Assembly (NCBI RefSeq): GCF_000225705.1
Contig: NZ_JH126467.1
Span: forward strand, 445,435-509,434
Length of the DNA: 64,000 bases
From: Collinsella tanakaei YIT 12063
Lineage (GTDB): Bacteria; Actinomycetota; Coriobacteriia; Coriobacteriales; Coriobacteriaceae
Direction of reading: 5' to 3'
Shown here: one piece after another, positions 4,908 through 32,145 of the stretch
How positions within the stretch are numbered: position 1 is the stretch's first letter
Layout: each line of letters starts with the position of its first letter
Program-made: the position numbers and the translations under genes
The notes under the pieces: generated by a model
Told to the model about the DNA's origin: nothing
Database searches by the model: none
Seen by the model: the letters and a program-made list of their open reading frames with translations, nothing else

Positions 4908-4956
4908 TCTAGATGCAGAAGATATAGCTTACAGAGAGCTTCAACTCACCAATTTA

Positions 4957-4991
4957 AACGACGACGTCTCCAAGGGGACGTCGTCGTTTTT
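4957..4991 (+). terminator. Rho-independent terminator after the integrase
   Basis: AACGACGACGTC (4957-4968) pairs perfectly with GACGTCGTCGTT (4977-4988), followed by a T run. It probably marks the boundary between the element and the sugar operon. Confidence 0.8.
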
Positions 4992-5004
4992 GCTTCACAC
5001 TCGA

Positions 5005-5043
5005 ACTCTAAACAAAAGCCGCGCACCAATGGGCACGCGGCTT
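5005..5043 (-). terminator. Rho-independent terminator of the EIIA gene
   Basis: On the minus strand AAGCCGCG and CGCGGCTT (5036-5043/5016-5023) form a stem followed by TTTGTTT. It ends the leftward sugar operon and converges with the terminator at 4957-4991. Confidence 0.7.
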
Positions 5044-5067
5044 ACACGCATATAAGCGAAAAGGAGG

Positions 5068-5613
5068 CTAGCGAGCGACCTTAAGAACGGCCTCGCCTGC
5101 AGAAACAGCGGAATCCTCGTCCGCGCACAGCTCTACAGAAGCGAACTCAGCGCTGTTGGAAACAGCCAGCACAACAACGTCCTTATAACCAGCAGAGGCG
5201 ATCTTACCGCGATCGATGCCCAGAATCGCCTGACCGGCAACTACGTGATCACCCTGGGCAACATAGCCGGTAAAGCCCTCTCCCTGCATGTTAACGGTAT
5301 CAACGCCCACATGCACCAGAACCTCGACGCCGTCATCGCCCTGGATGCCAACGGCATGGCCCATGGTAACGGTCACCGTGCCGGTAACGGGAGCATAAAC
5401 GACGTCGCCCTCGGGCCAAACGCCGCAACCCTTGCCGAGGACCTCGGAGCTAAAGACCGGATCGGGGATATCAGCCATCTTGCAAACGCGGCCCTTTACG
5501 GGAGCGCACAGCGTATCAGCAGAAACCTGAGCCGTTACGGATGCGGGCACCGCGGGCTTCTCGGGCTCCGCCGCCTTCTTAAACCTGTCAAAAAATCCCA
5601 TTGGATCCCCCAT
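5068..5613 (-). CDS. PTS glucose-type EIIA protein
   Basis: A 177-181-residue EIIA of the glucose family. The core has VFSSEVLGKGCGVWP, VYAPVTGTV, GHAVGIQ and VEVLVHVGVDTVNMQGEGF, where the histidine in LVHVG is the phosphorylation site. It accepts phosphate from HPr and passes it to an EIIB. The neighbouring PTS IIBC protein has no EIIA domain, so this separate protein probably serves it. Start may be ATG 5613 or ATG 5601 (MGFFDRFKK). A promoter-like pair (-10 TATTAT at 5700-5705, -35 TTGCGT at 5722-5727, minus strand) could give it independent expression. Confidence 0.85.
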   Translation of the reverse strand: MGDPMGFFDRFKKAAEPEKPAVPASVTAQVSADTLCAPVKGRVCKMADIPDPVFSSEVLGKGCGVWPEGDVVYAPVTGTVTVTMGHAVGIQGDDGVEVLVHVGVDTVNMQGEGFTGYVAQGDHVVAGQAILGIDRGKIASAGYKDVVVLAVSNSAEFASVELCADEDSAVSAGEAVLKVAR

Positions 5614-13141: not shown

Positions 13142-13291
13142 TACGTACGCCAAAAGCAGGTCGGCGTTTTGAGGCAAACCCTCTATCGCATTTGTAACGA
13201 CATGAGTTATGGCCCTCAATATTAATAAGGATGGTATACACTTCTGTAACTTATACATTTGCACGCGCATGAGTTACTTTTGGAGGACCAC

Positions 13292-14320
13292 ATGATCGCA
13301 ATCCTGCGCAAGGACGCCTCGCCCGAAGCCGTTGAGCATCTACTCAGCTGGATCGAAAAGAAGGGCCTTCAAACTAACTATAGTAAGGGCGAGAACGAGA
13401 CCGTCATCGGCCTGGTGGGAGACACCACCAAGATCGATCCCTTCCTGCTTGAGTCGATGGACATCGTTGAACGCGTACAGCGCGTCTCCGAGCCCTTCAA
13501 GAAGGCCAACCGCAAGTTCCATCCCGAGGACACCGTCGTCGATTGCGGACACGGTGTCAAGATCGGTGGCGGCCACTTCCAGGTGATCGCCGGACCCTGC
13601 TCGGTCGAAGGCAAGAACCTCATCAAAATCGCCAGGCGTGTTAAGGCTGCCGGCGCCACCATGCTACGCGGCGGCGCATACAAGCCCCGCACTTCTCCGT
13701 ACGCATACCAGGGCATGGGCCCCGAGGGCCTCGACCTGCTGCGCGAAGCTGCCGACGAGCTCGATATGCCCATCGTCACCGAGATTATGGACCAGCGCGA
13801 CGTCCAAACGTTCCTCAATAAGAACATCGAGGTCTGGCAGATCGGCGCACGTAACGCCCAAAACTTCCCCCTGCTGAAAGAGGTGGGTAAGACCAAGGCC
13901 CCCATCCTACTCAAACGCGGCATGGCGGGTACCATCGACGAGCTGCTGATGGCGGCCGAGTACATCATGAGCGAGGGCAACGAAAACGTCATCCTGTGCG
14001 AGCGCGGCATCCGCACGTTCGAGACGCGTACCCGCAACACCTTCGACCTCAACGCCGTGCCCGTCCTGCACTACCTAAGCCACCTTCCCGTGGTCGCAGA
14101 CCCCAGCCACGCCACCGGCTACACGCGCTACGTCGAGCCCATGGCGCTTGCCGCCACCGCAGCGGGTGCCGACGGCCTTGAGATCGAGGTTCACGACGAC
14201 CCCAGCCGCGCCTGGTCCGACGGCGCTCAGGCCCTGACTCCCGATATGTTCGACCAGACCATGGAGCGCATCCGCCAGATCCGCTCCGTCATCTGCGACA
14301 CTGAGAGCTGCGAGGCGTAA
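13292..14320 (+). CDS. aroF: 3-deoxy-7-phosphoheptulonate (DAHP) synthase, type I-beta
   Basis: ATG 13292 has TGGAGGA at good spacing; the upstream in-frame extension is non-coding in appearance. 342 residues: an N-terminal ferredoxin-like regulatory domain (1-70, MIAILRKDASPEAVEHLL) and a TIM-barrel with VIAGPCSVE, LRGGAYKPRTSPYAYQG, LLKRGMAGT, CERGIRTFE and PVVADPSHATG. It condenses PEP with erythrose 4-phosphate, the first step of the shikimate pathway. The N-terminal domain is the known site of Tyr or prephenate inhibition in relatives. First gene of the aro operon. Confidence 0.95.
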   Translation: MIAILRKDASPEAVEHLLSWIEKKGLQTNYSKGENETVIGLVGDTTKIDPFLLESMDIVERVQRVSEPFKKANRKFHPEDTVVDCGHGVKIGGGHFQVIAGPCSVEGKNLIKIARRVKAAGATMLRGGAYKPRTSPYAYQGMGPEGLDLLREAADELDMPIVTEIMDQRDVQTFLNKNIEVWQIGARNAQNFPLLKEVGKTKAPILLKRGMAGTIDELLMAAEYIMSEGNENVILCERGIRTFETRTRNTFDLNAVPVLHYLSHLPVVADPSHATGYTRYVEPMALAATAAGADGLEIEVHDDPSRAWSDGAQALTPDMFDQTMERIRQIRSVICDTESCEA

Positions 14321-14326
14321 GGAACC

Positions 14327-15226
14327 ATGGACAACACCTCTACCCCTGCAGAAGCAACTTCAAACAATCCCACCGTAGGCATCTTGGGCCTGGGCCTTAT
14401 CGGCGGCAGTTTCGCCCGCGCCTACCACGCTGCCGGCTGGCGCGTCGCCGCATTCGATACCGATGCGGACACGCTTGCTATAGCCATGATCGACACGGTT
14501 GATACGGTCTTGGACGATGCCTCGCTCGCAGACTGCGACCTGGTGATTCTCTCCGCATACCCCGAGGCCTGCATCGCATGGCTTCAGTCCCGCGCCCAAA
14601 CGCTAGACGAGCTGGGCGCGGAAGGTCCTTTGGTCATCGATAGCGCCGGCGTCAAGGGAGCGCTCTGCAATCGCGCGTTCGACCTGGCGAGTACCTATGG
14701 ATTTACCTTCTGCGGCGCGCACCCCATGGCGGGTACCGAGCACTCCGGATACGCCTACGGTAGCGCGGATATGTTTGTCGGCGCTCCCATGGTTCTCGTC
14801 CCGCCCCAGCTGGACGATGTCGCCCGCCTCGAGCTTCTCGACAGGGCCCATACGTTGCTCTCCCCCTGCCACTTCGGGCGCTTTAGCGTCACCACGCCGG
14901 CCGACCATGACCGCGTCATCGCCTTTACCAGCCAGCTGGCCCACGTGGTCTCCAACGCGTATGTGAAGAGCCCCACGGCCCAAGCCCATCATGGCTTCTC
15001 CGCCGGCAGCTACAAGGACCTCACAAGGGTGGCGCACCTCAACCCCGATATGTGGAGCGAGCTGATGATCCAAGACGCCGACTACCTGGCCGATGAAATC
15101 GAGATCATCATCAACGCGCTCGATAAATACCGCGTCGCCCTCATCAACCGCGATCGGGTAGGGCTTCGCGAACTTCTTGCAGAGGGCGACCAGATCAAGC
15201 GCGCACTCGATGACATGCCGCGTTAA
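14327..15226 (+). CDS. tyrA: Prephenate dehydrogenase
   Basis: 299 residues. The NAD-binding motif is GILGLGLIGGS near residue 18; GAHPMAGTEHSG and FSAGSYKDLTRVA are typical of TyrA. It converts prephenate to hydroxyphenylpyruvate for tyrosine. No ACT domain is present at the C-terminus, so regulation by tyrosine, if any, lies elsewhere. The gene starts six bases after the DAHP synthase stop, with GTAAGGA overlapping that stop as ribosome site. Confidence 0.93.
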   Translation: MDNTSTPAEATSNNPTVGILGLGLIGGSFARAYHAAGWRVAAFDTDADTLAIAMIDTVDTVLDDASLADCDLVILSAYPEACIAWLQSRAQTLDELGAEGPLVIDSAGVKGALCNRAFDLASTYGFTFCGAHPMAGTEHSGYAYGSADMFVGAPMVLVPPQLDDVARLELLDRAHTLLSPCHFGRFSVTTPADHDRVIAFTSQLAHVVSNAYVKSPTAQAHHGFSAGSYKDLTRVAHLNPDMWSELMIQDADYLADEIEIIINALDKYRVALINRDRVGLRELLAEGDQIKRALDDMPR

Positions 15227-15246
15227 GATCTGCGAAAGGCAGGACC

Positions 15247-16362
15247 ATGTACTCTCTTGATATCCAGGCATCTAAGCCCTACCAGGTGCTGATCGACACC
15301 TTCTTGCTTGAACGCGCAGGTGAGATCGCGCGTTCGCTCAACGCGGGACGGCGCACCCTCATCATCAGCGACTCCAACGTCGCTCCGCTCTATGCGGAAC
15401 CCGTGAAGTCCGGTTTGCAGGCTGCCGGCTACACCTGCGAGCTCGCCGTATTCAGCGCCGGTGAAGAGCACAAGCGCGCGGAGACGTACATCAGCCTCCT
15501 CGAGAAGGCCGCGTCCTTTGAGATGACGCGCTCCGACCTCATCATCGCCCTTGGCGGCGGCGTGGTGGGAGATGTCGCGGGCTTTGTCGCGGCGACCTAC
15601 ATGCGAGGCATCGACTTCATCCAGATTCCCACCACGCTGCTGGCCATGGTCGACTCCTCCGTTGGCGGAAAAACCGCTATCGACCTTGAGGCGGGAAAGA
15701 ACCTCGCCGGTGCATTCTGGCAGCCGCGTGCGGTTCTCGCCGATGTAGGCTGCCTGGGCACGCTAACGGACGAGCAATTCGCCGACGGCTGCGGAGAGGT
15801 AATCAAGCATGCCGTTATCGCGGACAGCGAGCTGTTCGAGGAGCTCGAGAAGACGCCGCTTACGCCCGAGCTCCTCAAGCAGGATCTTTCTCGCGTCGCC
15901 TACCTCATCGCCCGTAACATCGATATTAAGCGAGCTGTTGTCGAGGCGGACGAGCGCGAGTCCAACATGCGCAAGCTCCTCAACTTTGGTCACAGCATCG
16001 GCCATGGCGTCGAAGCGGCGGAATCCTACCGCCTGGGACACGGAACATGCGTCGGTATCGGCATGGTGGCCATCGCCAGCGCCTCTGTCACCGCAGAAGT
16101 GTGCGAACCCGATGTTCCCGATCGAATTGCCGCGCTCCTACGCAACCACGGGCTTTCACTTCATTTCCAAGCCGACGCCCAGAACATCTATAACGAAGCC
16201 CTTCATGATAAGAAGCGCGCAGGCAATTCGATCGATCTGGTGGTTCCGCGCGCAATCGGGGCGGTCTCGATAGCACCCACACCGCTCGATGAGTTCAAAA
16301 AGATCCTTGAGGTGGGCCTTGCCTGCGTGCACGCCTACGCCGGGGACATAGAAGACGAGTAA
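15247..16362 (+). CDS. aroB: 3-dehydroquinate synthase
   Basis: 371 residues with all family motifs: ALGGGVVGDVAGF, IPTTLLAMVDSSVGGKT, GEVIKHAVI, LLNFGHSIGHGVE and GHGTCVGIGM. The Glu and two His zinc ligands and the NAD-binding glycines are present, so it should be active. It cyclises DAHP to dehydroquinate. Twenty bases separate it from tyrA, with GAAAGGAGG-like sequence before the ATG. A second, degenerate relative lies at 28302. Confidence 0.95.
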   Translation: MYSLDIQASKPYQVLIDTFLLERAGEIARSLNAGRRTLIISDSNVAPLYAEPVKSGLQAAGYTCELAVFSAGEEHKRAETYISLLEKAASFEMTRSDLIIALGGGVVGDVAGFVAATYMRGIDFIQIPTTLLAMVDSSVGGKTAIDLEAGKNLAGAFWQPRAVLADVGCLGTLTDEQFADGCGEVIKHAVIADSELFEELEKTPLTPELLKQDLSRVAYLIARNIDIKRAVVEADERESNMRKLLNFGHSIGHGVEAAESYRLGHGTCVGIGMVAIASASVTAEVCEPDVPDRIAALLRNHGLSLHFQADAQNIYNEALHDKKRAGNSIDLVVPRAIGAVSIAPTPLDEFKKILEVGLACVHAYAGDIEDE

Positions 16363-16398
16363 CCAGCACATACATTTCGCAGCATCAAGGGAGCATGT

Positions 16399-17715
16399 AT
16401 GATTGCCCATATTCATCCGACCCTGCTTTCCGGAACCATTCCGGCCATCGCCTCGAAGTCGGTTGCACATCGCCTCATCATCGTCGCCGCGCTCGCTAAT
16501 GGCGACACCCACATCAAGTGCAACACCACGTGCGCCGACATCGACGCCACCATCCGCTGCCTTACGGCGCTTGGCGCCAAGATAGATGCGGTCGACGATG
16601 GCTTAATGGTAAAGCCTATGCCCAAAAGCGTCGCCTTCGGCCTGCTGAGGGCGCTGCATCATGCCACCCTCGACTGCGGCGAATCCGGCTCGACGCTTCG
16701 CTTCATGCTTCCCGTCGCATGCGCGCTGGGTGCAGAGGCGACTTTTATTGGAAGCGGTCGTTTGGGCGAAAGGCCCCTCTCCCCGCTTTCCGAGGAGCTA
16801 ATCGCCGCCGGATGCGAACTCGAGGGTCTCGGCGGCTTCCCACTCAAAACATCTGGTCGAATTCGCCCTGGACGATTCGAGCTTCCCGGCGATGTGAGTT
16901 CTCAGTACATTACCGGCCTTCTGCTCGCAGCGCCGCTGCTCGACCACCCCAGCGAGATCGTTGTGAACGGGCGCATCGAGAGCCGGCCCTATATCAACCT
17001 CACCATACAGGCCATGCAAACCTTCGGAGTCGACGTCTACGTTGATCGCAGGACCCCGGGCGATGGCACAGAGGTCACCGTCTTCACCACCGAGGACGAC
17101 ACCTACCGCACCCCGCATGAGGCGACCGTAGAGGGTGACTGGTCCAATGCGGCCTTCTGGCTGTGCGCAGGCGCTCTGGGCAGGCTGCCCATCAAGGTCG
17201 ACGGGCTCTCGCTTTCTTCCGCCCAGGGCGATCGCAACGTTCTCGCAGCCCTGTCGCGCTTTGGTGCCCGCATAGGCCGCTCCACCGACGCCGCCATTTC
17301 TCGTCCAGACAAACTCTGCGGCTTCGAGATGAGTGCCAAGGACATCCCGGATTTGGTCCCCATTATCGCCGCGGTCGCCTCCGTTGCAGAGGGCCGCACG
17401 GTGATCACCGACTGCGCTCGCCTGCGCATCAAAGAATCCGATAGGCTCGCCACCGTCGCCAAAGAACTTAGCAACCTGGGAGCGCAGATCCAAATCAAAC
17501 GCGACGCGCTCATCATCGACGGCGTCCCCCAACTGATCGGCGGCACGGTCGATTCCCACAACGACCATCGCATCGCCATGATGGCTGCCATCGCCGCCTC
17601 CCGTTGCGAAAACGATGTCTACATCAAGGGCGCGGAAGCCGTAAACAAGTCCTACCCGCTGTTCTTCGATCATTATCAAGAGCTTGGCGGCATGGTCGAG
17701 CTCACGCAAGAATAG
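16399..17715 (+). CDS. aroA: 5-enolpyruvylshikimate-3-phosphate synthase
   Basis: 438 residues. Recognisable motifs are AIASKSVAHRL (substrate-binding Lys), LDCGESGSTLRFMLP, GDVSSQYITGLLL, DIPDLVPIIA, IKESDRLATVAKEL and HNDHRIAMM. It transfers enolpyruvate from PEP to shikimate 3-phosphate. AAGGGAGC precedes the ATG. The gene ends 11 bases before aroC. Confidence 0.95.
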   Translation: MIAHIHPTLLSGTIPAIASKSVAHRLIIVAALANGDTHIKCNTTCADIDATIRCLTALGAKIDAVDDGLMVKPMPKSVAFGLLRALHHATLDCGESGSTLRFMLPVACALGAEATFIGSGRLGERPLSPLSEELIAAGCELEGLGGFPLKTSGRIRPGRFELPGDVSSQYITGLLLAAPLLDHPSEIVVNGRIESRPYINLTIQAMQTFGVDVYVDRRTPGDGTEVTVFTTEDDTYRTPHEATVEGDWSNAAFWLCAGALGRLPIKVDGLSLSSAQGDRNVLAALSRFGARIGRSTDAAISRPDKLCGFEMSAKDIPDLVPIIAAVASVAEGRTVITDCARLRIKESDRLATVAKELSNLGAQIQIKRDALIIDGVPQLIGGTVDSHNDHRIAMMAAIAASRCENDVYIKGAEAVNKSYPLFFDHYQELGGMVELTQE

Positions 17716-17726
17716 GGGCTGTCTGC

Positions 17727-18854
17727 ATGTCTTCTTTCACCGGCAACGTCCTCAAGCTCAGCATATTCGGTCAGTCCCACTCGCCTGCCATCGGCTGCTC
17801 GCTCGACGGCATCCCGGCCGGCGTTCCCATTGACTTGGAGCGACTCCAGCTCTTTCTCGATAGACGCGCGCCGGGCCGCAATGAGACCGCGACCGCACGC
17901 AAGGAGACCGATACGGCACATATCATCTCCGGCATAGTCGACGGCCGCACCTGCGGGGCACCCATATCCGGCATTATCAAAAATGCCGACACGCGCTCGC
18001 AAGACTACTCCAACCTGCGCAGAATCCCTCGCCCCGGTCATGCTGATTATGCAGCGTATATCAAATACAAGAACAACCATGATGTCGCGGGCGGCGGTCA
18101 CTTCTCCGGTCGCCTCACCGCACCCCTGTGCATCGCTGGCGGCATCGCGCTACAGGCCCTCGAGACCCAGGGCATCCGCATTGCCGCCCACATCGCCGCG
18201 CTGGGTCCGCGAGATATTCGCGATACGCCGCTCGACCCCATGAAGCCAAACCAAGTTCAGCTCAAAGCCATATCCACTAACCCGCTCCCCTGCGTAAGCG
18301 CGCACGCGGCGGCCTCTATGCGCGAATGCATAGTCGATGCAAAGTCTCATATGGACTCGGTGGGCGGCGTGATCGAATGCGTCGCGTATGGCGTTCCCGC
18401 CGGCATCGGCGACCCAATGTTCGACGGCATCGAGAACCGCATCGCCCGCCTCGCCTTCGGCATTCCCGCAATCAAGGGCGTGGACTTTGGCGCCGGGTTC
18501 TCCTCGGCCCGTCTGATGGGAAGCCAGAACAACGACTCGTACCGAATGCAGGATGGCCAAGTACTACCTCAAACCAACAATGCGGGCGGTATCGTCGGCG
18601 GCATCACCACCGGTATGCCCGTTATCTGGCACATGGCGGTAAAACCCACGCCGTCGATCGGACAGCAGCAAGACAGCGTGGATCTTGAAGCACATGAGAA
18701 CGCGGAACTCAAGATCCACGGTCGCCACGATCCCTGCATCGTTCCGCGAGCAGTCCCCGTAGCAGAAGCCGTTTGCGCGGTCGCATTACTCGATGCCATG
18801 CTCGAAGACGGTGCTTTCGTCCTGCCCTGCCAAGCCGATGCCCGCTTTCGCTAA
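17727..18854 (+). CDS. aroC: Chorismate synthase
   Basis: ATG 17727 (MSSFTGNVLKLSIFGQSHS) is the family start; the frame is open upstream only because it overlaps aroA. 375 residues, with GCSLDGIPAG, RPGHADYAAYIKY, GGHFSGRLTAP, GSQNNDSY and HDPCIVPRAVPVAEA. It needs reduced FMN and makes chorismate from EPSP. It lies between aroA and pheA in the operon. Confidence 0.95.
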   Translation: MSSFTGNVLKLSIFGQSHSPAIGCSLDGIPAGVPIDLERLQLFLDRRAPGRNETATARKETDTAHIISGIVDGRTCGAPISGIIKNADTRSQDYSNLRRIPRPGHADYAAYIKYKNNHDVAGGGHFSGRLTAPLCIAGGIALQALETQGIRIAAHIAALGPRDIRDTPLDPMKPNQVQLKAISTNPLPCVSAHAAASMRECIVDAKSHMDSVGGVIECVAYGVPAGIGDPMFDGIENRIARLAFGIPAIKGVDFGAGFSSARLMGSQNNDSYRMQDGQVLPQTNNAGGIVGGITTGMPVIWHMAVKPTPSIGQQQDSVDLEAHENAELKIHGRHDPCIVPRAVPVAEAVCAVALLDAMLEDGAFVLPCQADARFR

Positions 18855-18881
18855 ACCCAATCCCGCCCAGGAGCCCAGCAT

Positions 18882-20027
18882 ATGAATCTAGAAGAAGTAC
18901 GTGAGCATATCGATCGCATCGACGCCCAGCTTATCGAGCTGTTCAACGAGCGACTCGACCTCGCCCCCCACGTTGTCAACGCGAAGCTCGAGATGGGCAA
19001 GCCCATTTTCGACCCCGGCCGCGAGCGCGATAAACTCGCCGGTATCGCTCAGGCGGCCCCTCAAGACAGGCAGGCGCAGCTCATCTCGCTCTTCTCGCTT
19101 CTAATGAATATGAACAAGATCGAGCAGAACCGCTACCTGGCATCGCTTGATCAAAAGCCCCAATCCAAGCGCGCTATCAACACGCTACTGCCCGCAGACG
19201 CCCAGTTCCCCGTCACCGCATCCGTTGCGTGCCAAGGGGTCGAGGGCGCCTATAGCCAGCTCGCCGCCTCCAAGCTCTTCAAGGTACCTTCCATCACGTT
19301 TTTCGATACATTCGAGGGCGTGTTCAGGGCGGTACGCGACGGCCTGTGCGACTACGGTGTGCTACCCATTGAGAATTCCACCGCGGGCTCGGTCAACGCC
19401 GTCTATGACCTGTTGGCGCAGTACAGGTTCTCCATCGTCCGCTCGCTGCGCCTTAAAATCGACCATAACCTGGTCGCCAAGCCCGGTACGCGTCGTGAAG
19501 ATATCCGCGAGGTCATCTCTCACGAGCAAGCGCTTGCCCAATGCGCCGATTTCATTGAATCTATGGGCGTCAAAGCGACAACGGCCAGCAATACCGCGCA
19601 GGCAGCAGAGTTCGTCGCATCATCTGAGCGCAGCGACATCGCAGCACTTTGCTCCCGCAGTTGCAAAGCCCTTTATAACCTCGAAATCCTGCAAGAAGAT
19701 GTACAGGATTCCGACAACAACTACACCCGCTTCGTCGTCATCACCAAAGATGCCGTCATCTATCCGGGGGCGGACCGTACCTCGCTTATGCTCACGCTCC
19801 CCCATCAGCCCGGATCGCTCTATCGCGTCCTCGAACGCTTCTACGCCCTGGATATCAACCTTGTCAAGCTGGAAAGCCGTCCCATCCCCGGACATGACTT
19901 CGATTTCATGTTCTATTTCGATCTCATCTGCCCGGTGGGTTCACAGCCGTTTATGACCTTGCTGGATTCTTTGGACGATGTCTGCGAGCAGTACACGTAT
20001 TTTGGCAGCTATCAGGAGGTGCTCTAA
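18882..20027 (+). CDS. pheA: Bifunctional chorismate mutase / prephenate dehydratase
   Basis: 381 residues in three parts: an AroQ-type chorismate mutase (1-85, REHIDRIDAQLIELFNERLD), a prephenate dehydratase (about 105-285, QGVEGAYSQLAASKLF, LPIENSTAGSV, NNYTRFVVI) and a C-terminal ACT domain (about 295-370, HQPGSLYRVLERF, KLESRPIPG) that in relatives binds phenylalanine. It makes phenylpyruvate. Its stop is directly followed by the aroE-aroK ATG, so translation is probably coupled. Confidence 0.94.
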   Translation: MNLEEVREHIDRIDAQLIELFNERLDLAPHVVNAKLEMGKPIFDPGRERDKLAGIAQAAPQDRQAQLISLFSLLMNMNKIEQNRYLASLDQKPQSKRAINTLLPADAQFPVTASVACQGVEGAYSQLAASKLFKVPSITFFDTFEGVFRAVRDGLCDYGVLPIENSTAGSVNAVYDLLAQYRFSIVRSLRLKIDHNLVAKPGTRREDIREVISHEQALAQCADFIESMGVKATTASNTAQAAEFVASSERSDIAALCSRSCKALYNLEILQEDVQDSDNNYTRFVVITKDAVIYPGADRTSLMLTLPHQPGSLYRVLERFYALDINLVKLESRPIPGHDFDFMFYFDLICPVGSQPFMTLLDSLDDVCEQYTYFGSYQEVL

Positions 20028-21275
20028 ATGGAAGCTAAGCGTCCGTACGGGGTTCTTGGACGAGTATTGGGTCATAGCTATACCCCCGTCATCTACCACG
20101 CTCTCGCCGGTCTCGACTACCGAAAGTTCGAGCGCGAGCCCCAAGACATCGAGAGTTTCCTTAAAGGGGACGAATGGGAGGGCGTCAACGTGACCATCCC
20201 ATATAAGCGCGACGTCATGTCCTATTTGGACGAGCTCTCAGACGTCGCCGAACGCCTGGGCAACGTCAACACCATCACACGCCTTGCAGACGGCAGGCTC
20301 CGTGGCGACAATACCGACTATTACGGCTTCAAAGTGCTGGTTGAAAGCGTGGGCGTACCGCTGGCAGGCAAAGTGGCCTTGGTCTTTGGCGGAGACGGAG
20401 GAGCCGGATCCACTTGTATGAAAGTGCTTGAAGATTTAGGCGTCGAAGCCCATGTAGTGAGCCGACAGGGGGAGATTACCTACAGCGATCTTGCCCAATG
20501 GAGCCATGCCGCGCTGGTGGTCAACTGCACGCCCGTGGGCATGTTCCCCAATTGCCCCGCAAGCGTCTGCAGCCTTGATGAGCTCACTCAACTTGAGGCT
20601 GTGGTCGATATCGTTTACAACCCCGCGCGCACGGGCCTTATGTTGCAAGCTGAAGAACGCGACATCCCATACGTAGGCGGCTTGCTCATGCTGGTAGCCC
20701 AAGCGGCTCAAGCAGTAGAGCGCTACACAGGCGAAACCGTATCACGCGACCGCATCGTGGAAGTCACCAATGCCCTGTCGCTCACCGAGCAAAACATCGC
20801 CCTCATTGGAATGCCCGGATCCGGAAAGACGCGCGTTGGCGAGAGCTTGGCGCAAATCACAGGTCGAGAGCATATCGACCTCGACCACGCTTTTGAGCAG
20901 ATGGTCGGCGCTCCCTGCGCAGAATTTATCCTTGAACGCGGCGAAAATTCGTTCCGCGAGCAAGAGACCAAGGTCCTCGCCGATGTTGCCGCTCGCAGCG
21001 GGCTTGTCATCTCTTGCGGAGGCGGCGTGGTCACGCGCGAGGAAAACTACAGCCTCCTTCACCAAAACAGTCGCATCGTCATGCTCAATAGGAATATCGA
21101 CGAGCTGGCCCATAAGGGCAGACCCATCACCGCGCGCGACGGCGTCGACAAGCTCGCGCAGCAGCGCATGCCGCTGTACCGTGCCTGGGCGGATATGGTG
21201 GTCGATTCCCTTGATTGCGCTGAAGCGACGGCGCGCGAGGTCGCCCGCCGTCTCGGCGAGCCCCAGGCACTCTAA
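20028..21275 (+). CDS. aroE-aroK: Shikimate dehydrogenase - shikimate kinase fusion
   Basis: 415 residues. The first 250 form AroE: VLGHSYTPVIYHAL, VNVTIPYKRDVM (catalytic Lys), NTITRLADGRLRGDNTDYYG and a dinucleotide-binding VFGGDGGAGSTCMKVL. From about 258 a shikimate kinase follows: ALIGMPGSGKTRVGESLA (Walker A), DLDHAFE, ENSFREQETKVL, ISCGGGVV and KGRPI. Both halves keep their active-site motifs. The fusion joins two successive steps. A second, single-domain shikimate kinase lies at 29405. AGGAGGTG overlaps the end of pheA. Confidence 0.94.
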   Translation: MEAKRPYGVLGRVLGHSYTPVIYHALAGLDYRKFEREPQDIESFLKGDEWEGVNVTIPYKRDVMSYLDELSDVAERLGNVNTITRLADGRLRGDNTDYYGFKVLVESVGVPLAGKVALVFGGDGGAGSTCMKVLEDLGVEAHVVSRQGEITYSDLAQWSHAALVVNCTPVGMFPNCPASVCSLDELTQLEAVVDIVYNPARTGLMLQAEERDIPYVGGLLMLVAQAAQAVERYTGETVSRDRIVEVTNALSLTEQNIALIGMPGSGKTRVGESLAQITGREHIDLDHAFEQMVGAPCAEFILERGENSFREQETKVLADVAARSGLVISCGGGVVTREENYSLLHQNSRIVMLNRNIDELAHKGRPITARDGVDKLAQQRMPLYRAWADMVVDSLDCAEATAREVARRLGEPQAL

Positions 21276-25406: not shown

Positions 25407-26015
25407 CTACTCGCCATCCACGTAATCGGAATCGAGGACTGCGTCAATCGACTCCTCGACATCGGCATCGGATTCCGTCTCGACGTCGGACTCCGTATGG
25501 GCTTCGATATCGAATACCCCCTCAGATGAATCGACCTGCGCCTCGTCCTCGGACTCAACCTGACCCTCGCCCTGCTCGACCGGAGGCTCGGGAAGCGTCT
25601 CCATGCGGGAGATGCGTCCCAACACACCGTTGACAAACCGAGAAGACTCATCTGTGCCATAAGCCTTAGCTATCTCGACGGCCTCATTGATGATGACCGC
25701 ATCATCGATGGCGGCGTCACCGGTAAGGAATCGCATCTCGTATACAGCAAGACGAAGCAGGTTGCGATCAGTGCCGGGCATACGATAGAGGCTCCAGTTC
25801 ATGGAAACGCTCTTGAGCGCATAGTCGATACGATCGATATTGTCGTGGCAGCCACGAGCCAACTCGACGGCATAGGCGTCAAGCGGGCCCTTGGAAATCA
25901 GATAATCGCCGGCGAGAACGGTATCGACCGAAAGATCGAGCGCCTCCGCCTGGAACAGAATCTGCAGGGCCTGGCTACGGGCGAGGGTGCGTCCGCGTTC
26001 AACCTTTAAGCTCAC
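25407..26015 (-). CDS. nusB: Transcription antitermination factor NusB with acidic tail
   Basis: Residues 1-140 form the helical NusB fold (RTLARSQALQILFQAEAL, MPGTDRNLLRLAVYEM, INEAVEIAKAYGTDESSRFVNGVL is the typical end). It joins NusE, NusA and NusG on boxA RNA during rRNA transcription. About 60 further residues are a strongly acidic Glu/Asp/Ser-rich tail not found in the core family. Spacing to xseB is two bases. Confidence 0.92.
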   Translation of the reverse strand: MSLKVERGRTLARSQALQILFQAEALDLSVDTVLAGDYLISKGPLDAYAVELARGCHDNIDRIDYALKSVSMNWSLYRMPGTDRNLLRLAVYEMRFLTGDAAIDDAVIINEAVEIAKAYGTDESSRFVNGVLGRISRMETLPEPPVEQGEGQVESEDEAQVDSSEGVFDIEAHTESDVETESDADVEESIDAVLDSDYVDGE

Positions 26016-26018
26016 GCG

Positions 26019-26378
26019 CTACTCCTTGGGAAATACGAGGCCGTCGATGCAAACGTCCACAGACTCGACTTCGACGCCGACCTGTGCATCGATAGCCTTG
26101 GCGGTAGCCTCGCGAATAGACTCGGCGAGCTTCTTGAAGGGATAGCCGAAGAACACGGTGACGTGAACGGTAATCGCGAGCTTCTCATCCACTACCGAGC
26201 ACTCGACAGCGGGACCCGCGGGAACGTTCTTGGAGCTCAGCATGGAAACGAGGTTGGTGGCGATATCGCGCACGCCAACGGTTGCGATACCCTCGACCTC
26301 CTCGACAGCGCGAGAAACGATGGCGGATAGGACCTCGGGTGCGATGCCTATACCGGCAATCTTGATCTCTTCGGTCAT
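26019..26378 (-). CDS. Asp23/Gls24-family envelope stress protein (YqhY-like)
   Basis: 119 residues matching the Asp23 pattern: IAPEVLSAIVSRAVEEVEGI near the start, TVHVTVFFGYPFKKLAESIR and VESVDVCIDGLVF at the end. Relatives next to nusB (YqhY) affect lipid metabolism and envelope homeostasis. No membrane anchor is present. It lies three bases upstream of nusB. Confidence 0.88.
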   Translation of the reverse strand: MTEEIKIAGIGIAPEVLSAIVSRAVEEVEGIATVGVRDIATNLVSMLSSKNVPAGPAVECSVVDEKLAITVHVTVFFGYPFKKLAESIREATAKAIDAQVGVEVESVDVCIDGLVFPKE

Positions 26379-26423: not shown

Positions 26424-26987
26424 CTAAGCGCGGGAAACGAACTCGCCGGTGCGGGTATCGATCTTGATGCTCTCGCCCTCGTTGAGGTACATAGGGACCT
26501 GAACAACGGCACCGGTATCGATGGTCGCGGGCTTGTAGGCGCCCTGGACGGTATCGCCCTTAGCGCCCGGAACGGTCTCGGTGACCTCGGCGATGATGAA
26601 CATCGGCGGGTTCACGCCCATGAGCTCCTCCTCGGCGTAGAGCAGCTGGCAGGTATCGTTCTCGCGAAGCCACTTGGAGTTGTCGCCCACAAAGTCGGCA
26701 GGAACGGAAACCTGCTCGTAGGTCTCGTTGTCCATGAAGATGTAGTCGGCGCCGTCGTTGTAGAGATACTGCATCTCCTTGGTGAACAGCTGGACGCTCT
26801 CGAACTTGGAGCCGGCGTTGCAAGTCTGCTCGACTACGCGACCGGTCTTGATGTCCTTGGTCTTGTAGCGGACAAAAGCGCCGCCCTTGCCGGGCTTGAC
26901 GTGCTGGAACTCGACGAGAGTGCAGACCTTGTCCTTAATGCGCAGGCCGATGCCGTTCTTGAAGTCGGCGGTGGAGATGGTTGCCAT
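26424..26987 (-). CDS. efp: Elongation factor P
   Basis: ATG 26987 (MATISTADFKNGIGLRI) with GGAAAGG upstream gives the standard 187 residues. Three beta-barrel domains are recognisable; HVKPGKGGAFV holds the loop lysine near residue 34, and the C-terminal signature is NEGESIKIDTRTGEFVSRA. EF-P relieves ribosome stalling at polyproline. No modification-enzyme gene is next to it. Confidence 0.96.
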   Translation of the reverse strand: MATISTADFKNGIGLRIKDKVCTLVEFQHVKPGKGGAFVRYKTKDIKTGRVVEQTCNAGSKFESVQLFTKEMQYLYNDGADYIFMDNETYEQVSVPADFVGDNSKWLRENDTCQLLYAEEELMGVNPPMFIIAEVTETVPGAKGDTVQGAYKPATIDTGAVVQVPMYLNEGESIKIDTRTGEFVSRA

Positions 26988-27050
26988 TGAAAACCTTTCC
27001 TCATGCGACGTCAAATAGACGCCACCCAAACATACATATACAGATAGTTA

Positions 27051-27098: not shown

Positions 27099-28229
27099 TT
27101 AGCAGTCGATGACTACCAGATCGTGGCTGGACTTGGTGAAGGGCTCGAAGCCATCCTTGGTCACGATACCGTAGTCCTCTAGGCGCACGCCGCCAACGCC
27201 GGGAAGGTAGACACCGGGCTCAACGGTGACCACAGAGCCTTCCTCGAGCACGTTGCTGGTGCGACCAAGGTTGGGTAGCTCATGAATATCGATGCCCACA
27301 CCATGCCCCAAGCCGTGGCCATAATAGTCGCCATAGCCCGCATCGCCGATGATCTTCTTCGAGAGCATGTGGATCTCATGGCCATCAGCGCCCGCATGGA
27401 TGGCCGCCGCGCACTCCTCATGGGTGCGACGGACCAGGGCGTAGAGCTCGAACTGCTTTTCAGACGGCTGGCCGACGCAGACGGTGCGGGTCATATCGCT
27501 GCGATAGTCGCGGTACCCCGCGCCACAATCCATAAGGACGAAGTCGCCCTTCTCGACCATGCGGTCGCTTGGGATAGCGTGAGGATTGGCCGTGTTGGGA
27601 CCAGAGGCCACAATGGATGAGAACGCAAGGGAGTCCGCTCCGTTGTTGAACATGAACGTCTCGAGCTCGGTACGAATCTGCTTCTCGGTAAGGCCGGGAC
27701 GGATAAACTCGCACATGTGGGCAAAGGCGGCGTCGGTAATCGACTGGGCGTGACGCATCAACTCGATCTCTTCGGCGTCCTTGACCGCGCGCATGCGCTG
27801 GATATCGCCATGCATCTGGGGAAGGCTGGCGCAGATAGAGACGTCCTCTAGACCTCGCTGGATACCAAAGTAGAAAGAGATCTGCATGTCGTCCTCGACT
27901 GCGACGACAGAGCTTTTTGTTTCGAGGGCGCGATCGGCCACCCAACGAGGCATAGCGATCTGGTCCATATCGAGCTCCCAGGGATTGCCCGCAGGAAGGT
28001 TCTCCTCAAAAGAGTTGAAATAACGAGAATCAGTGTGCAGAAAGCAACGGTCGCGCGAGATAAAGGCAACGTGCGGGAACTCGAAGGTGTAATCAAATAC
28101 GCCCATAGCGCCGGTGAGCCAACGCAGATTGGCCTCATCGCGAACAACCACGGCATCATATCCGCGCTGAGCCATCATCTCGCGAACGCGGGCGATGCGC
28201 GCTGCGGGTCCAGAAATCTCTGTAGACAT
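27099..28229 (-). CDS. pepP: Xaa-Pro aminopeptidase (M24 family)
   Basis: 376 residues: a creatinase-type N-terminal domain (1-130) and a pita-bread catalytic domain. The metal ligands are seen in MDCGAGYRDYRSDMTRTV, GHGLGHGVGIDIHELP, VVTVEPGVYL and GGVRLEDYGIV. It removes N-terminal residues preceding proline. The place next to efp matches the actinobacterial pepQ-efp-nusB order; pepP or pepQ naming cannot be settled here. Confidence 0.92.
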   Translation of the reverse strand: MSTEISGPAARIARVREMMAQRGYDAVVVRDEANLRWLTGAMGVFDYTFEFPHVAFISRDRCFLHTDSRYFNSFEENLPAGNPWELDMDQIAMPRWVADRALETKSSVVAVEDDMQISFYFGIQRGLEDVSICASLPQMHGDIQRMRAVKDAEEIELMRHAQSITDAAFAHMCEFIRPGLTEKQIRTELETFMFNNGADSLAFSSIVASGPNTANPHAIPSDRMVEKGDFVLMDCGAGYRDYRSDMTRTVCVGQPSEKQFELYALVRRTHEECAAAIHAGADGHEIHMLSKKIIGDAGYGDYYGHGLGHGVGIDIHELPNLGRTSNVLEEGSVVTVEPGVYLPGVGGVRLEDYGIVTKDGFEPFTKSSHDLVVIDC

Positions 28230-28301: not shown

Positions 28302-29408
28302 TTAGGCGGGCTCGTCCATAAGCTCCGCGCGCGAAGCGAGGTAGGCGCGAGCATGCCGCTCGAGTACATCGTCCTCCACCGTGGCATAGCGAACGGTGCC
28401 AACGTGGCGGGGCAACGAGAACATGAAGCGATTCGAACGCTTGAAGCGGGTCTCCTTGAGAGCGGTCAAGAACCTATCGAACTCAAGCTCGAAGGGAAGC
28501 TCCTCCACCCCAAGGTCATCGAGCCTGTCATCCAGTGAAAAGACATCGTCGATATCAAAGCCAAACGCATCGACCGCTAGCCTGGCTTCAAAGCGCATGC
28601 CCTCGGCGAGGAGGTGATAGGCGGGAATCGAATCTCCGAGGCACGACCGAAGGGCGCGGGCGGTGGTGACGCCGAACTCCAAAGCGTTGCGAGCTGAGGG
28701 ATTGGCCGCCTTGATTACGGAGGATCGGGCGGTCTGAGCCATGCAGAGAGCATCTACCATGGGAACTTCGGCGTTATCGAGGACGCCCTCGACCAGCTCC
28801 TCAAAACGGTCCCACTGACGCCTGCTGTCGATAAAGGCCGAGGCGCAAAGCATCACGTAGCCGTTCATGCGCTCGTCATACGGACACAGGGGCACCAAGT
28901 CGAGGTCACAAGCGACCAAAGCGGCACGCGGCTCGACGGATATCATTTGAGACGAGGAACGGGTATCCAGCGGTCGCATGCTTGTAGCACACGAGGTCAT
29001 CGCATCAAGCGTGGTGGGCACCAGGGCGAACGGGGTCTCCCCGCACCAAGCATGGGCGCAAAAGCTAACCAGCGAGCACACGCCCATGCCGCCAAGGCCA
29101 ACGATTACGTCGTCGCGCGTGATGTCGCAAGAGTCGAGAGCATCGAATAGCTGGACGGCATAGGCCATTGTCGCCACGTTCTCCCCTGTTGGAAGCGACA
29201 GGTCGCTCACCGTGAAACCGGCATCGATCAAGGCGCGCGAGACCTCTAGACCGTAGCTCTCCGCAAGGGAGGATTCTGTAACGATAACGGCACGCTTGGG
29301 GGTAGCGACCAGGCATTTAACCATCTTACCAAGCTGCTCGACAACGCCCTCGCCAACGCGGAAGTCGGTACTGCGCGAACCGAAGTTGATAAGTTGACGA
29401 CGAATCAT
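28302..29408 (-). CDS. Degenerate 3-dehydroquinate synthase-like protein, probably not catalytic
   Basis: 368 residues, starting ATG 29408 in an ATGA overlap with aroK. The fold is clearly that of AroB (ALVPTTLDAMTSC aligns with IPTTLLAMVDSS of the true enzyme; GLGGMGVCSLVSFCAHAW with its ALGGGVVGDVAGF). The GGKT lysine, the GEVIKH segment and the GHSIGHG zinc ligands are all replaced (here ERMNGYVML and LEFGVTTARALRSC). The reading frame is intact and long, so it is not a decaying pseudogene. It occupies the position of aroB in the actinobacterial aroK-aroB locus. A new role or a regulatory one is inferred. Confidence 0.8.
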   Translation of the reverse strand: MIRRQLINFGSRSTDFRVGEGVVEQLGKMVKCLVATPKRAVIVTESSLAESYGLEVSRALIDAGFTVSDLSLPTGENVATMAYAVQLFDALDSCDITRDDVIVGLGGMGVCSLVSFCAHAWCGETPFALVPTTLDAMTSCATSMRPLDTRSSSQMISVEPRAALVACDLDLVPLCPYDERMNGYVMLCASAFIDSRRQWDRFEELVEGVLDNAEVPMVDALCMAQTARSSVIKAANPSARNALEFGVTTARALRSCLGDSIPAYHLLAEGMRFEARLAVDAFGFDIDDVFSLDDRLDDLGVEELPFELEFDRFLTALKETRFKRSNRFMFSLPRHVGTVRYATVEDDVLERHARAYLASRAELMDEPA

Positions 29409-29938
29409 AGAAGACCACACTCCAAAAGAAGCTCGGCTACGGAATAGGACACATCGGTAAAAGACCTGCCGCGGATATCGACGGTGAAATCGGCCGCCTG
29501 CTTATAAAGGGGACGACGGTGCTCGAGAAGCGCTGTCGCATGCTCGGCAGAGCGAAAATCCGGCCTGGTGTCGCTACGGCGGATCTGCCGCAGGGAATCA
29601 TCGATGTCGCCGTCAAGGTACACGCAATATCCAAGGCGGTGCATGATCTCGATATTGGCGGGAGTCTCTATGACCCCACCGCCGCAGGATACCAAAAGGC
29701 TCTTGTCGCGCGAGAGCGATTCGAGCGCTCGAGTTTCCAGCGCGCGGAACTCCTTCTCGCCAAACGTCTCGAAGATCTTGGTGACGCTCATGCGCATCTT
29801 GCGCTCGACCATGCGATCCGTATCGACGAACCTACGGTTGAACATACCGCCGAGGTTACGGGCAAGGGTCGACTTGCCGGCGCCCAGAAAACCGATAAAG
29901 AAGACGTGGTCGCACCCTCGTTTCTCAACCTTGGTCAT
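29405..29938 (-). CDS. aroK: Shikimate kinase (single-domain)
   Basis: ATG 29938 overlaps the yqeG stop as ATGA; the longer frame upstream is a shadow of yqeG. 177 residues with GFLGAGKSTLARNLG (Walker A), FVDTDRMVE, FRALETRALESL, SCGGGVIE and a RRSDTRPDF lid region. It phosphorylates shikimate, duplicating the kinase half of the fusion at 20028. It is translationally coupled to both neighbours. Confidence 0.88.
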   Translation of the reverse strand: MTKVEKRGCDHVFFIGFLGAGKSTLARNLGGMFNRRFVDTDRMVERKMRMSVTKIFETFGEKEFRALETRALESLSRDKSLLVSCGGGVIETPANIEIMHRLGYCVYLDGDIDDSLRQIRRSDTRPDFRSAEHATALLEHRRPLYKQAADFTVDIRGRSFTDVSYSVAELLLECGLL

Positions 29939-30453
29939 CGTAGGCCATCGCCCCCTTCCTCGCATGGAAGGTCGCGAAGCGCACGACGCTCGAAAAAGCG
30001 GAACGCGTAGGTGTACCACATATCAACATGCGTCTGCGGTTTCACCAAAATGGAATCAATGCCCGCCAAGCGCGAAGCGAACACATCCGTATAGAGCTGA
30101 TCGCCCACAAGAAGGGACTCCGAGCGCGTTGCCGAGAGCTTATGCAGCCCCGCCCACAAAGCAAAGGGTGCCGGCTTCATAGCGCACCAGATAACATGGT
30201 CTATACCAAGCTCGCGGGCAGAAGCCTCGACCTGGCTGCGGTACCAGTTGTTAGACACAAGACAAACGCGAAAACCAAGTCGGCGCGCCCGGTCAAGCCA
30301 ATCGCGAGCCTCGGGAGGGGCGCAGGCGGCGTCGCGGGGAACGAGCGTGTTGTCTCGATCCACCAGCAACGCGCGCTTACCGGATCGATAGAGCTCGTCC
30401 AAATCGATGCAATCGACCGAGGCCACATATCGCTTAGGGGCGAGGAACGTCAT
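29935..30453 (-). CDS. yqeG: YqeG-family HAD-type phosphatase
   Basis: 172 residues. LLVDRDNTLVP is the HAD motif I (DxDNT) of the YqeG IIIA subfamily; VCLVSNNW is motif II and LLVGDQLYTDVFASRLAG motif III. Substrate is unknown; relatives include phosphatidylglycerophosphate phosphatases. It overlaps mltG upstream and aroK downstream by four bases each. Confidence 0.87.
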   Translation of the reverse strand: MTFLAPKRYVASVDCIDLDELYRSGKRALLVDRDNTLVPRDAACAPPEARDWLDRARRLGFRVCLVSNNWYRSQVEASARELGIDHVIWCAMKPAPFALWAGLHKLSATRSESLLVGDQLYTDVFASRLAGIDSILVKPQTHVDMWYTYAFRFFERRALRDLPCEEGGDGLR

Positions 30454-31724
30454 GACGCGGACCCCGAGTACTCCTCACGGTCCTTGAGGAACTGGTCGTA
30501 ATCGCTGCTGAACTTATGCGTGCCATCCATAGCAGAAGATGCCACATAATACAGGTAATCGGTATCCGCAGGGTCAATCGCGGCCTTAATGGACGAGATG
30601 CTGGGCGAGCAGATGGGACCAGGGGTAAGGCCCTTGTTCTTATACACGTTGTAGGGCGAGTCGATCTCGAGGTCGGAGTAGGTAACACCCTGGCTGCCGC
30701 CGCCGCGGGCGTAGACGATGGCGGCATCGATCTGCAGGGGCATGTCGGCATCAAGGCGATTGTAGATAACGCTCGCCACAAGGGGGCGCTCGTCTTCCAC
30801 GGCGGTCTCGCGCTCGATCAAGGAGGCCATGCACATTATCTGCTGGAACGTAAGGCCGTTGTAGGTCGCCGAATAATCGATATCGGCGGTTTCGGCCACA
30901 AATTGATTCAGGAGGGCGCGGATAATATCATCGGCAGTGGGGGCGTCTCCCAGCGAGTACGTCTTGGGATAGAGGTATCCCTCTAGCAAGTCGTTGTAGG
31001 CGCCCTTGAGGAACGGATAGTCGGCAACGTAATTCGACGCCTTCGCTTGGGCGAGGAACTCGTCCACGGAAATACCGTAGGCGGCCTCGACGTTGGCAGC
31101 GGTCTGCTGAACCGTGAGGCCCTCCTGGATGACGAGCTTCACGCCCTCGACATTGGGCCCCTCTACAAGCTGGCGAACAACGTCCTCCGGATCCATACCC
31201 GTGTAGAGAACGTAGTCGCCGGGCTTGAGCGACATGGCGGCGTCGAGCTTCTCGACGGCAGCGTAGTACTTCTTGGGATCATCGATGATATGGGCCTCGG
31301 ACAAGCGACTGGCTATCACATCGCCGGAAGCACCCTCGGGGATGGTCACCTGCACCTCCTGTCCATCAGGAACAGACGAGGTAGAGGGCGAGATGAAGTT
31401 GGATACCGTGGGAACCACGAACAGAAGCACGCCGGCAACGGCAGCGACAACGGCAACGATCGCGATAACGACGATAAGCGGCGAGGGTCCGCGTCGGGGC
31501 GAGTTATACGGAGATCGCGAGGGGCGAGCCGCGCCTCGACCGGAATCATGTCTAGCGGGGCGAACGGGCTGGGGGCGCACGGCTGACCGACGGGCCTGCG
31601 AGGACGAAGCGGAACGCTGGACTCCAGATGCCACGGGGGCCCCGGATTTAAAGCGCTTTCCCGCGGGGCGCGATGAAGGCTGGGCGCCGTTAGCGCCTCG
31701 GATGTCGCGTCGGTCGTTAGCCAC
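30450..31724 (-). CDS. mltG: Endolytic murein transglycosylase MltG
   Basis: GTG 31724 with AGAAAGGA upstream is preferred to the ATG at 31748 deep inside ruvX. The first 75 residues are basic, Arg/Ser/Pro-rich and cytoplasmic; one membrane helix follows (IVVIAIVAVVAAVAGVLLF). Then come a LysM-like region and the YceG domain: EGYLYPKTYSL, MASLIERETAV with the catalytic glutamate, and TPGPICSPS. It cuts nascent glycan strands outside the membrane. Confidence 0.9.
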   Translation of the reverse strand: MANDRRDIRGANGAQPSSRPAGKRFKSGAPVASGVQRSASSSQARRSAVRPQPVRPARHDSGRGAARPSRSPYNSPRRGPSPLIVVIAIVAVVAAVAGVLLFVVPTVSNFISPSTSSVPDGQEVQVTIPEGASGDVIASRLSEAHIIDDPKKYYAAVEKLDAAMSLKPGDYVLYTGMDPEDVVRQLVEGPNVEGVKLVIQEGLTVQQTAANVEAAYGISVDEFLAQAKASNYVADYPFLKGAYNDLLEGYLYPKTYSLGDAPTADDIIRALLNQFVAETADIDYSATYNGLTFQQIMCMASLIERETAVEDERPLVASVIYNRLDADMPLQIDAAIVYARGGGSQGVTYSDLEIDSPYNVYKNKGLTPGPICSPSISSIKAAIDPADTDYLYYVASSAMDGTHKFSSDYDQFLKDREEYSGSAS

Positions 31725-32145
31725 GAGATTCCTTTCTATCGTGTCCATCAAGCCAAGCCTGAAGGAACAGGGATGCGGCGATCATGTCGACTTTGCCGCG
31801 CATCTGCCGCTCGCTGAGACCCTCCTCGCGCAAGATCCTCTTCGCCTCACGCGAGCTTAAACGCTCATCAGCAAATGCTATGGGCAATCCAGTGGCATCG
31901 GAGAGCTTTTGAGCAACGCCCTTGATGCGCTCCGCCTGAGGGCCCTCCTCTCCCGCCATGGTTTGAGGGAGCCCGCAGACCAAAAGCTCGGGCTCGTAGT
32001 CTTCAAGGAGCATGCGGAAGGGACGAGCGAGGTTGATGACCTCGTCCGCATTCATGACCTTAACGGGCATCGCCACGCGACCGGAGCGGTCGGAAGCGGC
32101 GATGCCGATCCTGGTCTCGCCGATATCAAGCGCGAGCACAACCAT
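31717..32145 (-). CDS. ruvX: Pre-16S rRNA nuclease RuvX/YqgF
   Basis: 142 residues of RNase H-like fold: ALDIGETRIGIA, VCGLPQTMAGEEGPQ and FADERLSSREAKRIL supply the acidic residues, with KVDMIAASLFLQ near the end. It matures the 16S 5' end in E. coli. It sits five bases after alaS and overlaps mltG, the usual actinobacterial order. Confidence 0.92.
   Translation of the reverse strand: MVVLALDIGETRIGIAASDRSGRVAMPVKVMNADEVINLARPFRMLLEDYEPELLVCGLPQTMAGEEGPQAERIKGVAQKLSDATGLPIAFADERLSSREAKRILREEGLSERQMRGKVDMIAASLFLQAWLDGHDRKESRG

Follow-up and report, generated by a model that had tools for sequence, protein, structure and literature searches.

The gene in the aroB place of the mltG-efp locus of Collinsella tanakaei YIT 12063 encodes a protein, here called AroB*, which, judged by alignment, has lost the whole active site of 3-dehydroquinate synthase (DHQS, EC 4.2.3.4) with the predicted fold kept, and which would thus not be a working DHQS. 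In our opinion, aroB* is probably a displaced resident aroB, maintained for a second, non-catalytic function that would rest on the DHQS fold and on residues outside the active site. Loss of the catalytic residues, a predicted fold that is kept, and purifying selection together would qualify AroB* as a pseudoenzyme. No earlier description of it was met in the literature searched, whether under AroB of Collinsella or Coriobacteriia or under pseudoenzymes of the DHQS type.

In the window (the whole analysed stretch of 64,000 nucleotides), the gene order is alaS-ruvX-mltG-yqeG-aroK-aroB*-pepP-efp-asp23-nusB (Table 1), in agreement with the arrangement given in the earlier note on this DNA (alaS-ruvX-mltG-...-aroK-aroB-...-efp-nusB), whose coordinates, 28302-29938, comprise aroK and aroB* together. 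Translation of aroB* likely starts at the ATG at 29408, and its ATGA overlaps the stop codon of aroK (29405-29407). Only two DHQS-type genes are present in the genome, aroB* and an intact aroB which, as had also been claimed, belongs to a separate aro operon. At the end of this operon (20028-21275, plus strand), AroE is fused to a motif-intact shikimate kinase; with the stand-alone aroK, the genome therefore has two shikimate kinases. Promoter and terminator scans near aroB* gave nothing beyond chance, and the neighbours (mltG, yqeG, pepP, efp, the asp23-like gene and nusB) offer no firm clue to function.

Table 1. Genes of the aroB* locus and of the aro operon, with their positions in the window.
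Feature	Coordinates	Strand	Remarks
aroB*, putative pseudo-3-dehydroquinate synthase, 368 aa	28302..29408	(-)	ATG at 29408; ORF open from GTG 29420
aroK, stand-alone shikimate kinase	29405..29938	(-)	catalytic and shikimate-binding motifs all intact
yqeG-family HAD phosphatase	29935..30453	(-)	TIGR01668 above cutoff; overlaps aroK start
mltG	30450..31751	(-)	upstream; same gene order in relatives; named after the earlier note and by position
pepP (Xaa-Pro aminopeptidase-like)	27099..28229	(-)	follows aroB* directly in nearly all relatives
efp (elongation factor P)	26424..27029	(-)	downstream of aroB*
asp23-like gene	26019-26378		after efp
nusB	25407-26015		after asp23-like gene
intact aroB (DHQS)	15247..16362	(+)	13/13 active-site residues present
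aro operon aroF-tyrA-aroB-aroA-aroC-pheA-aroE::aroK	13259..21275	(+)	complete

Sequence comparisons indicate that AroB* is a true homologue of AroB. It matches TIGR01357 with E=1.2e-23, but the score of 83.9 bits lies below the equivalog cutoff of 305; Pfam DHQ_synthase gave 33 bits and TIGR04425 22 bits against 400, and the homology to DHQS was also recovered by a solved-structure search. The active site was judged at 13 positions established for the Aspergillus DHQS, in 133 aligned AroB-like proteins of Coriobacteriia, of which 61 are canonical. All 61 canonical proteins read RDKNEKKRNHHHK at these positions and AroB* of the window reads GSRQMARREVRAR, with G, S, R, Q, M, A and R at R130, D146, K152, N162, E194, K197 and K250, and R, E, V, R, A and R at R264, N268, H271, H275, H287 and K356. 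The zinc ligands E194, H271 and H287 are M, V and A, the catalytic K152 and K197 are R and A, and among all ligand-binding and catalytic positions other than the zinc triad R264 alone is kept, K250 being conservatively replaced by R. The NAD-binding motif GGGxxxD reads GGMxxxS. The losses thus go further than those of the catalytic lysine and all three zinc ligands, which had been proposed from the window alone. Another 67 orthologues from Coriobacteriaceae and Atopobiaceae are also stripped at the active site, with letters that differ among species, and the zinc triad is kept by none of the orthologues from these two families that were aligned.

That the fold has survived, as the earlier note proposed, is predicted by an AlphaFold2 model built with 45 orthologues in the alignment (pLDDT 97.1, pTM 0.94), with which Foldseek retrieved AroB structures from the PDB at TM 0.82-0.87 of the query length. 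The gene is under purifying selection and is not a decaying pseudogene, and the view that its open frame has been kept by selection is upheld. Over 124 close species pairs, which are not independent of each other, median dN/dS (Nei-Gojobori) was 0.094 for aroB*, 0.038 for aroK and 0.024 for pepP; the frames are open in nearly all genomes, and neither relaxed selection nor broken frames, the signs of decay that would have spoken against a maintained gene, were seen. In the 45-row alignment nine columns are invariant, including R17, W121, R272, R276, D293, P333 and R340, and the near-invariant residues hold across about 68 effectively independent sequences. It could still be argued that aroB* is decaying slowly as a pseudogene and stays in frame solely through translational coupling in the operon, since its rate of evolution is 2.5-4 times that of its neighbours and decay is seen in one genome (G259, see below). 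The selection data and the near-invariant residues contradict this, and the clean deletion of the gene in Slackia indicates that coupling does not force its retention, so that we consider such an explanation extremely improbable and largely refuted.

Most of the former catalytic positions of AroB* vary freely, even within the genus, and their variability reaches or exceeds the median, which does not bear out the new substrate suggested in the earlier note. At 12 sites where catalytic or NAD residues were lost, mean entropy is 2.75 bits vs 2.11 overall, the columns of N268, H271 and H287 stand at the 94th-98th percentile of variability, and the former zinc/phosphate half of the cleft belongs to the most variable regions of the protein. 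Of the GGG in the NAD motif only the first glycine is invariant. R264 is kept as R in 96% of AroB* sequences and K250 is occupied by R in 91%. Zinc ligands at shifted positions had been named as an observation that would overturn the proposed loss, yet no replacement E/H/H triad is apparent among the 35 positions that are invariant or nearly so; the nearly invariant residues include a single E, E269, and a single H, H352. Neither the metal-ligand triad nor the NAD site of sugar phosphate cyclases other than DHQS was recognised in AroB*.

The argument for an enzyme with a new active site or a new substrate comes from the newly fixed S112, W121, C122 and R228 and the kept R240 (R228 and R240 being the old K250 and R264), which align with cleft-lining positions of DHQS and might form a pocket remodelled to take an anionic compound. 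Residues newly fixed around the old cleft may leave room for a remodelled ligand site or even a catalytic one. We regard this possibility as unlikely, since besides the missing metal triad, the variable catalytic positions and the lost GGG loop, no general acid/base pair is conserved at the old site, and R228/R240 are absent from pseudo-copies of the gene in Eggerthellaceae.

The gene is present in 57 of the 58 Coriobacteriaceae genomes searched, that is in 44/45 Collinsella genomes (the sole exception being 72% complete) and in 13/13 further genomes of the family, and in 139/140 Atopobiaceae genomes, the remaining one (G161) carrying the operon copy only. With the active site lost and the gene nevertheless retained under selection in about 200 genomes, its task must lie elsewhere than in the synthesis of aromatic amino acids. 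This function is nonetheless dispensable, as the aroB of the locus has been lost altogether in Slackia G110 and in G161, and AroB* is degraded in G259. In one Collinsella genome (G044), aroB* occurs in two out-of-order pieces together with duplicated mltG and yqeG fragments, either an assembly scramble or a real rearrangement. In two Eggerthellaceae genomes, G222 and G188, aroA-family and aroC genes are present and no AroB-like gene was found, which may be due to masked sequence or mean that dehydroquinate is made by an unusual route.

A separate question concerns the origin of the two aroB genes. The corresponding locus of Eggerthellaceae and of other orders has the order mltG-yqeG-(aroE)-aroC-aroK-aroB-pepP-efp, with aroB intact; Coriobacteriaceae and Atopobiaceae no longer have aroE and aroC there, and aroK-aroB* remains. 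In the phylogenetic tree, AroB* branches beside the locus AroB of Eggerthellaceae and the operon AroB lies on a distant branch; AroB* and active AroB share about 20-28% identity. From these comparisons, aroB* descends from the resident locus gene that Eggerthellaceae still use. Tree position and locus order therefore point to a resident gene displaced by that of another lineage rather than to one half of a recent duplication, and a recent paralogue is ruled out by the deep separation of the two lineages in the tree. Of the proposal that aroB* is a paralogue turned to a new task, the new or non-catalytic task stands and the origin by duplication does not.

We propose the following course of events. 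The original locus aroB of Coriobacteriales would be the present aroB*. Before Coriobacteriaceae and Atopobiaceae separated, in their ancestor, an aroB of a distant lineage, residing in the aro operon, would have taken over dehydroquinate synthesis; the resident gene would then have shed its zinc-binding, NAD-motif and catalytic residues, and would have been retained for a second, non-catalytic function that needs the DHQS fold and residues outside the catalytic centre.

The first partner to be considered for such a function is AroK. The two genes are start/stop coupled, putative natural AroK-AroB fusions occur in other orders (L069, L127, L131), and the locus AroK has every catalytic motif intact in all Coriobacteriaceae and Atopobiaceae genomes that have it. 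AroB* might thus be a dedicated partner or allosteric subunit that AroK needs, or the remnant of an AroK-AroB complex. However, aroB* is not tied to aroK: in five Atopobiaceae genera (g21, with four genomes, g60, g128, g131 and g134) it stands at the locus without aroK and retains 7-9 of the 9 invariant residues, and these genomes have at most one shikimate kinase elsewhere. Conversely, aroK is present at the locus without aroB in Slackia G110 and G222. Coupling to aroK, given by the earlier note as a reason for retention, cannot therefore account for it, and a role as AroK partner is in our estimation quite unlikely, even though both genes persist in the genome discussed next.

This genome, G191 (a single contig, 99% complete), is without canonical aroB, chorismate synthase (aroC) and aroA; its one match to the EPSP-synthase family scores like the MurA-type first matches of other genomes, and its sole shikimate kinase is the locus aroK. 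Its AroB* has retained every invariant residue (9/9) and 24/26 of the nearly invariant ones. Thus, in one complete genome, aroB* persists outside the shikimate pathway. G191 represents one species, and its loss of the pathway might be recent. The AroK of G191 (L172) has all shikimate-kinase motifs in spite of the missing aroA, aroC and working aroB, which suggests that AroK may also have another role. G191 bears as well on the possibility that AroB* is a regulatory pseudo-subunit which forms heterodimers with active AroB and tunes dehydroquinate synthesis. In the DHQS dimer, the active site borrows R130 from the neighbouring subunit, and nearly all genomes with aroB* also have an active AroB; but the low identity between the two proteins, and a conserved AroB* in a genome that has no active AroB, make this assumption very improbable. 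In G259, with a genome of 1.0 Mb and no aroC, shikimate kinase or working aroB, AroB* is of full length and has lost most invariant residues; there, constraint on it is fading. In G309 and G365, aroC and aroB were not found; these genomes are 86% complete and a missing contig could explain the result.

Because the fold and the off-site residues are kept, catalysis is lost, and both the operon partner and the pathway have been outlived, AroB* most likely acts by non-catalytic binding or as a scaffold. The off-site set includes D15, R17 and G19 in the N-terminal hairpin, and E269-R272-F273-R276, D293 and H352 in the C-terminal domain. These residues could simply serve fold stability. An anionic ligand may possibly be bound or sensed through the kept R228/R240 pair.

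Decayed copies also occur in Eggerthellaceae, in parallel to AroB*. In g14, g44 and g64 a second aroB is intact and the locus copy is without an active site. These copies keep 24, 20 and 20, respectively, of the 25 sites conserved both in AroB* and in active locus AroBs (the latter a small reference set of about three effective sequences). Outside this set they keep 39-53% of a further 89 conserved sites with no catalytic role (Fisher p 2e-6 to 0.02). Unrelated AroBs of the operon type, which are active and of similar overall identity, have no preference for the 25 off-site residues. It is suggestive that these copies, which appear to have decayed independently, retain largely the same off-site set as AroB*.

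The first tree placed all decayed copies, AroB* and the Eggerthellaceae pseudo-copies, in one group. When Coriobacteriaceae and Atopobiaceae were left out, the pseudo-copies fell beside the Eggerthellaceae locus AroBs with 75/90 support, and their gene order is Eggerthellaceae-like with aroC still at the locus; the common grouping is hence best read as long-branch attraction. One grouping of the pseudo-copies with locus AroBs had p 0.053 in the AU test, and between one and three origins of decay within Eggerthellaceae would be compatible with these data.

One explanation of the shared residues, which we offer tentatively and hold to be possible but somewhat doubtful, is that the active locus AroB of Coriobacteriales already moonlighted, so that at each takeover catalysis was stripped and the same off-site residues were kept, even after loss of the pathway. 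The second function would then have been present in the active ancestral enzyme, and takeovers would have occurred once in Coriobacteriaceae/Atopobiaceae, at least once more in Eggerthellaceae, and perhaps in family f6. In the genome G267 of that family (L178, about 4390-5390) a half-decayed locus AroB, reading RDKNARKGAQHHN at the 13 sites, lies beside a second aroB; it already has W121, and is apparently an intermediate in active-site loss.

If moonlighting of the ancestral enzyme is confirmed, Coriobacteriia would offer a natural and repeated separation of an enzyme's second function from its catalysis. Active, dead and half-decayed resident copies as well as clean losses are found within this one bacterial class, making it a clean comparative system for a hidden second function in a core metabolic enzyme. 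AroB* would be a family-wide pseudo-DHQS of anaerobes that are common in the gut and the mouth, such as Collinsella, Olsenella and their kin. It is easily mistaken for a working DHQS, and databases which call it one would be wrong; metabolic models and auxotrophy predictions could be misled, above all in the pathway-less G191.

Comparison with known proteins sets AroB* apart from each of them. AroB (TIGR01357; PDB 3okf, 6lk2, 3qbe) has the same fold, length and domain order, but keeps what AroB* lacks: all zinc ligands, K152, K197, N268, K356 and the GGG NAD motif. The sugar phosphate cyclases EEVS, DDGS, DOIS and aminoDHQS (PDB 4p53, 5tpr, 2gru) share the fold of the AroB* model according to Foldseek, and, by their structure descriptions, enzymes of this type bind metal and NAD in the solved structures. 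The superfamily has been described, and its metal-ligand positions are conserved (PMC4426668), whereas AroB* has no conserved ligands. A DHQS-derived protein with a non-catalytic, regulatory role, to which AroB* might be compared by analogy, is the fungal activator QUTA, which originated from two domains of AROM, those for DHQS and EPSPS; unlike QUTA, AroB* has a single DHQS domain, no added DNA-binding part and no link to quinate. In E. coli, AroK has a second activity linked to mecillinam; it was considered as a lead to the role of AroB* and dropped, as AroB* outlives AroK. Bifunctional AroK-AroB proteins (NF010627, NF010556) bring aroK and aroB side by side, as at the aroB* locus, but are fused, whereas in the window the two are separate coupled genes with a presumably catalytically dead AroB half. 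In families f8 and f11, AroK and AroB share one open frame at L069, L127 and L131, and these may be natural fusions.
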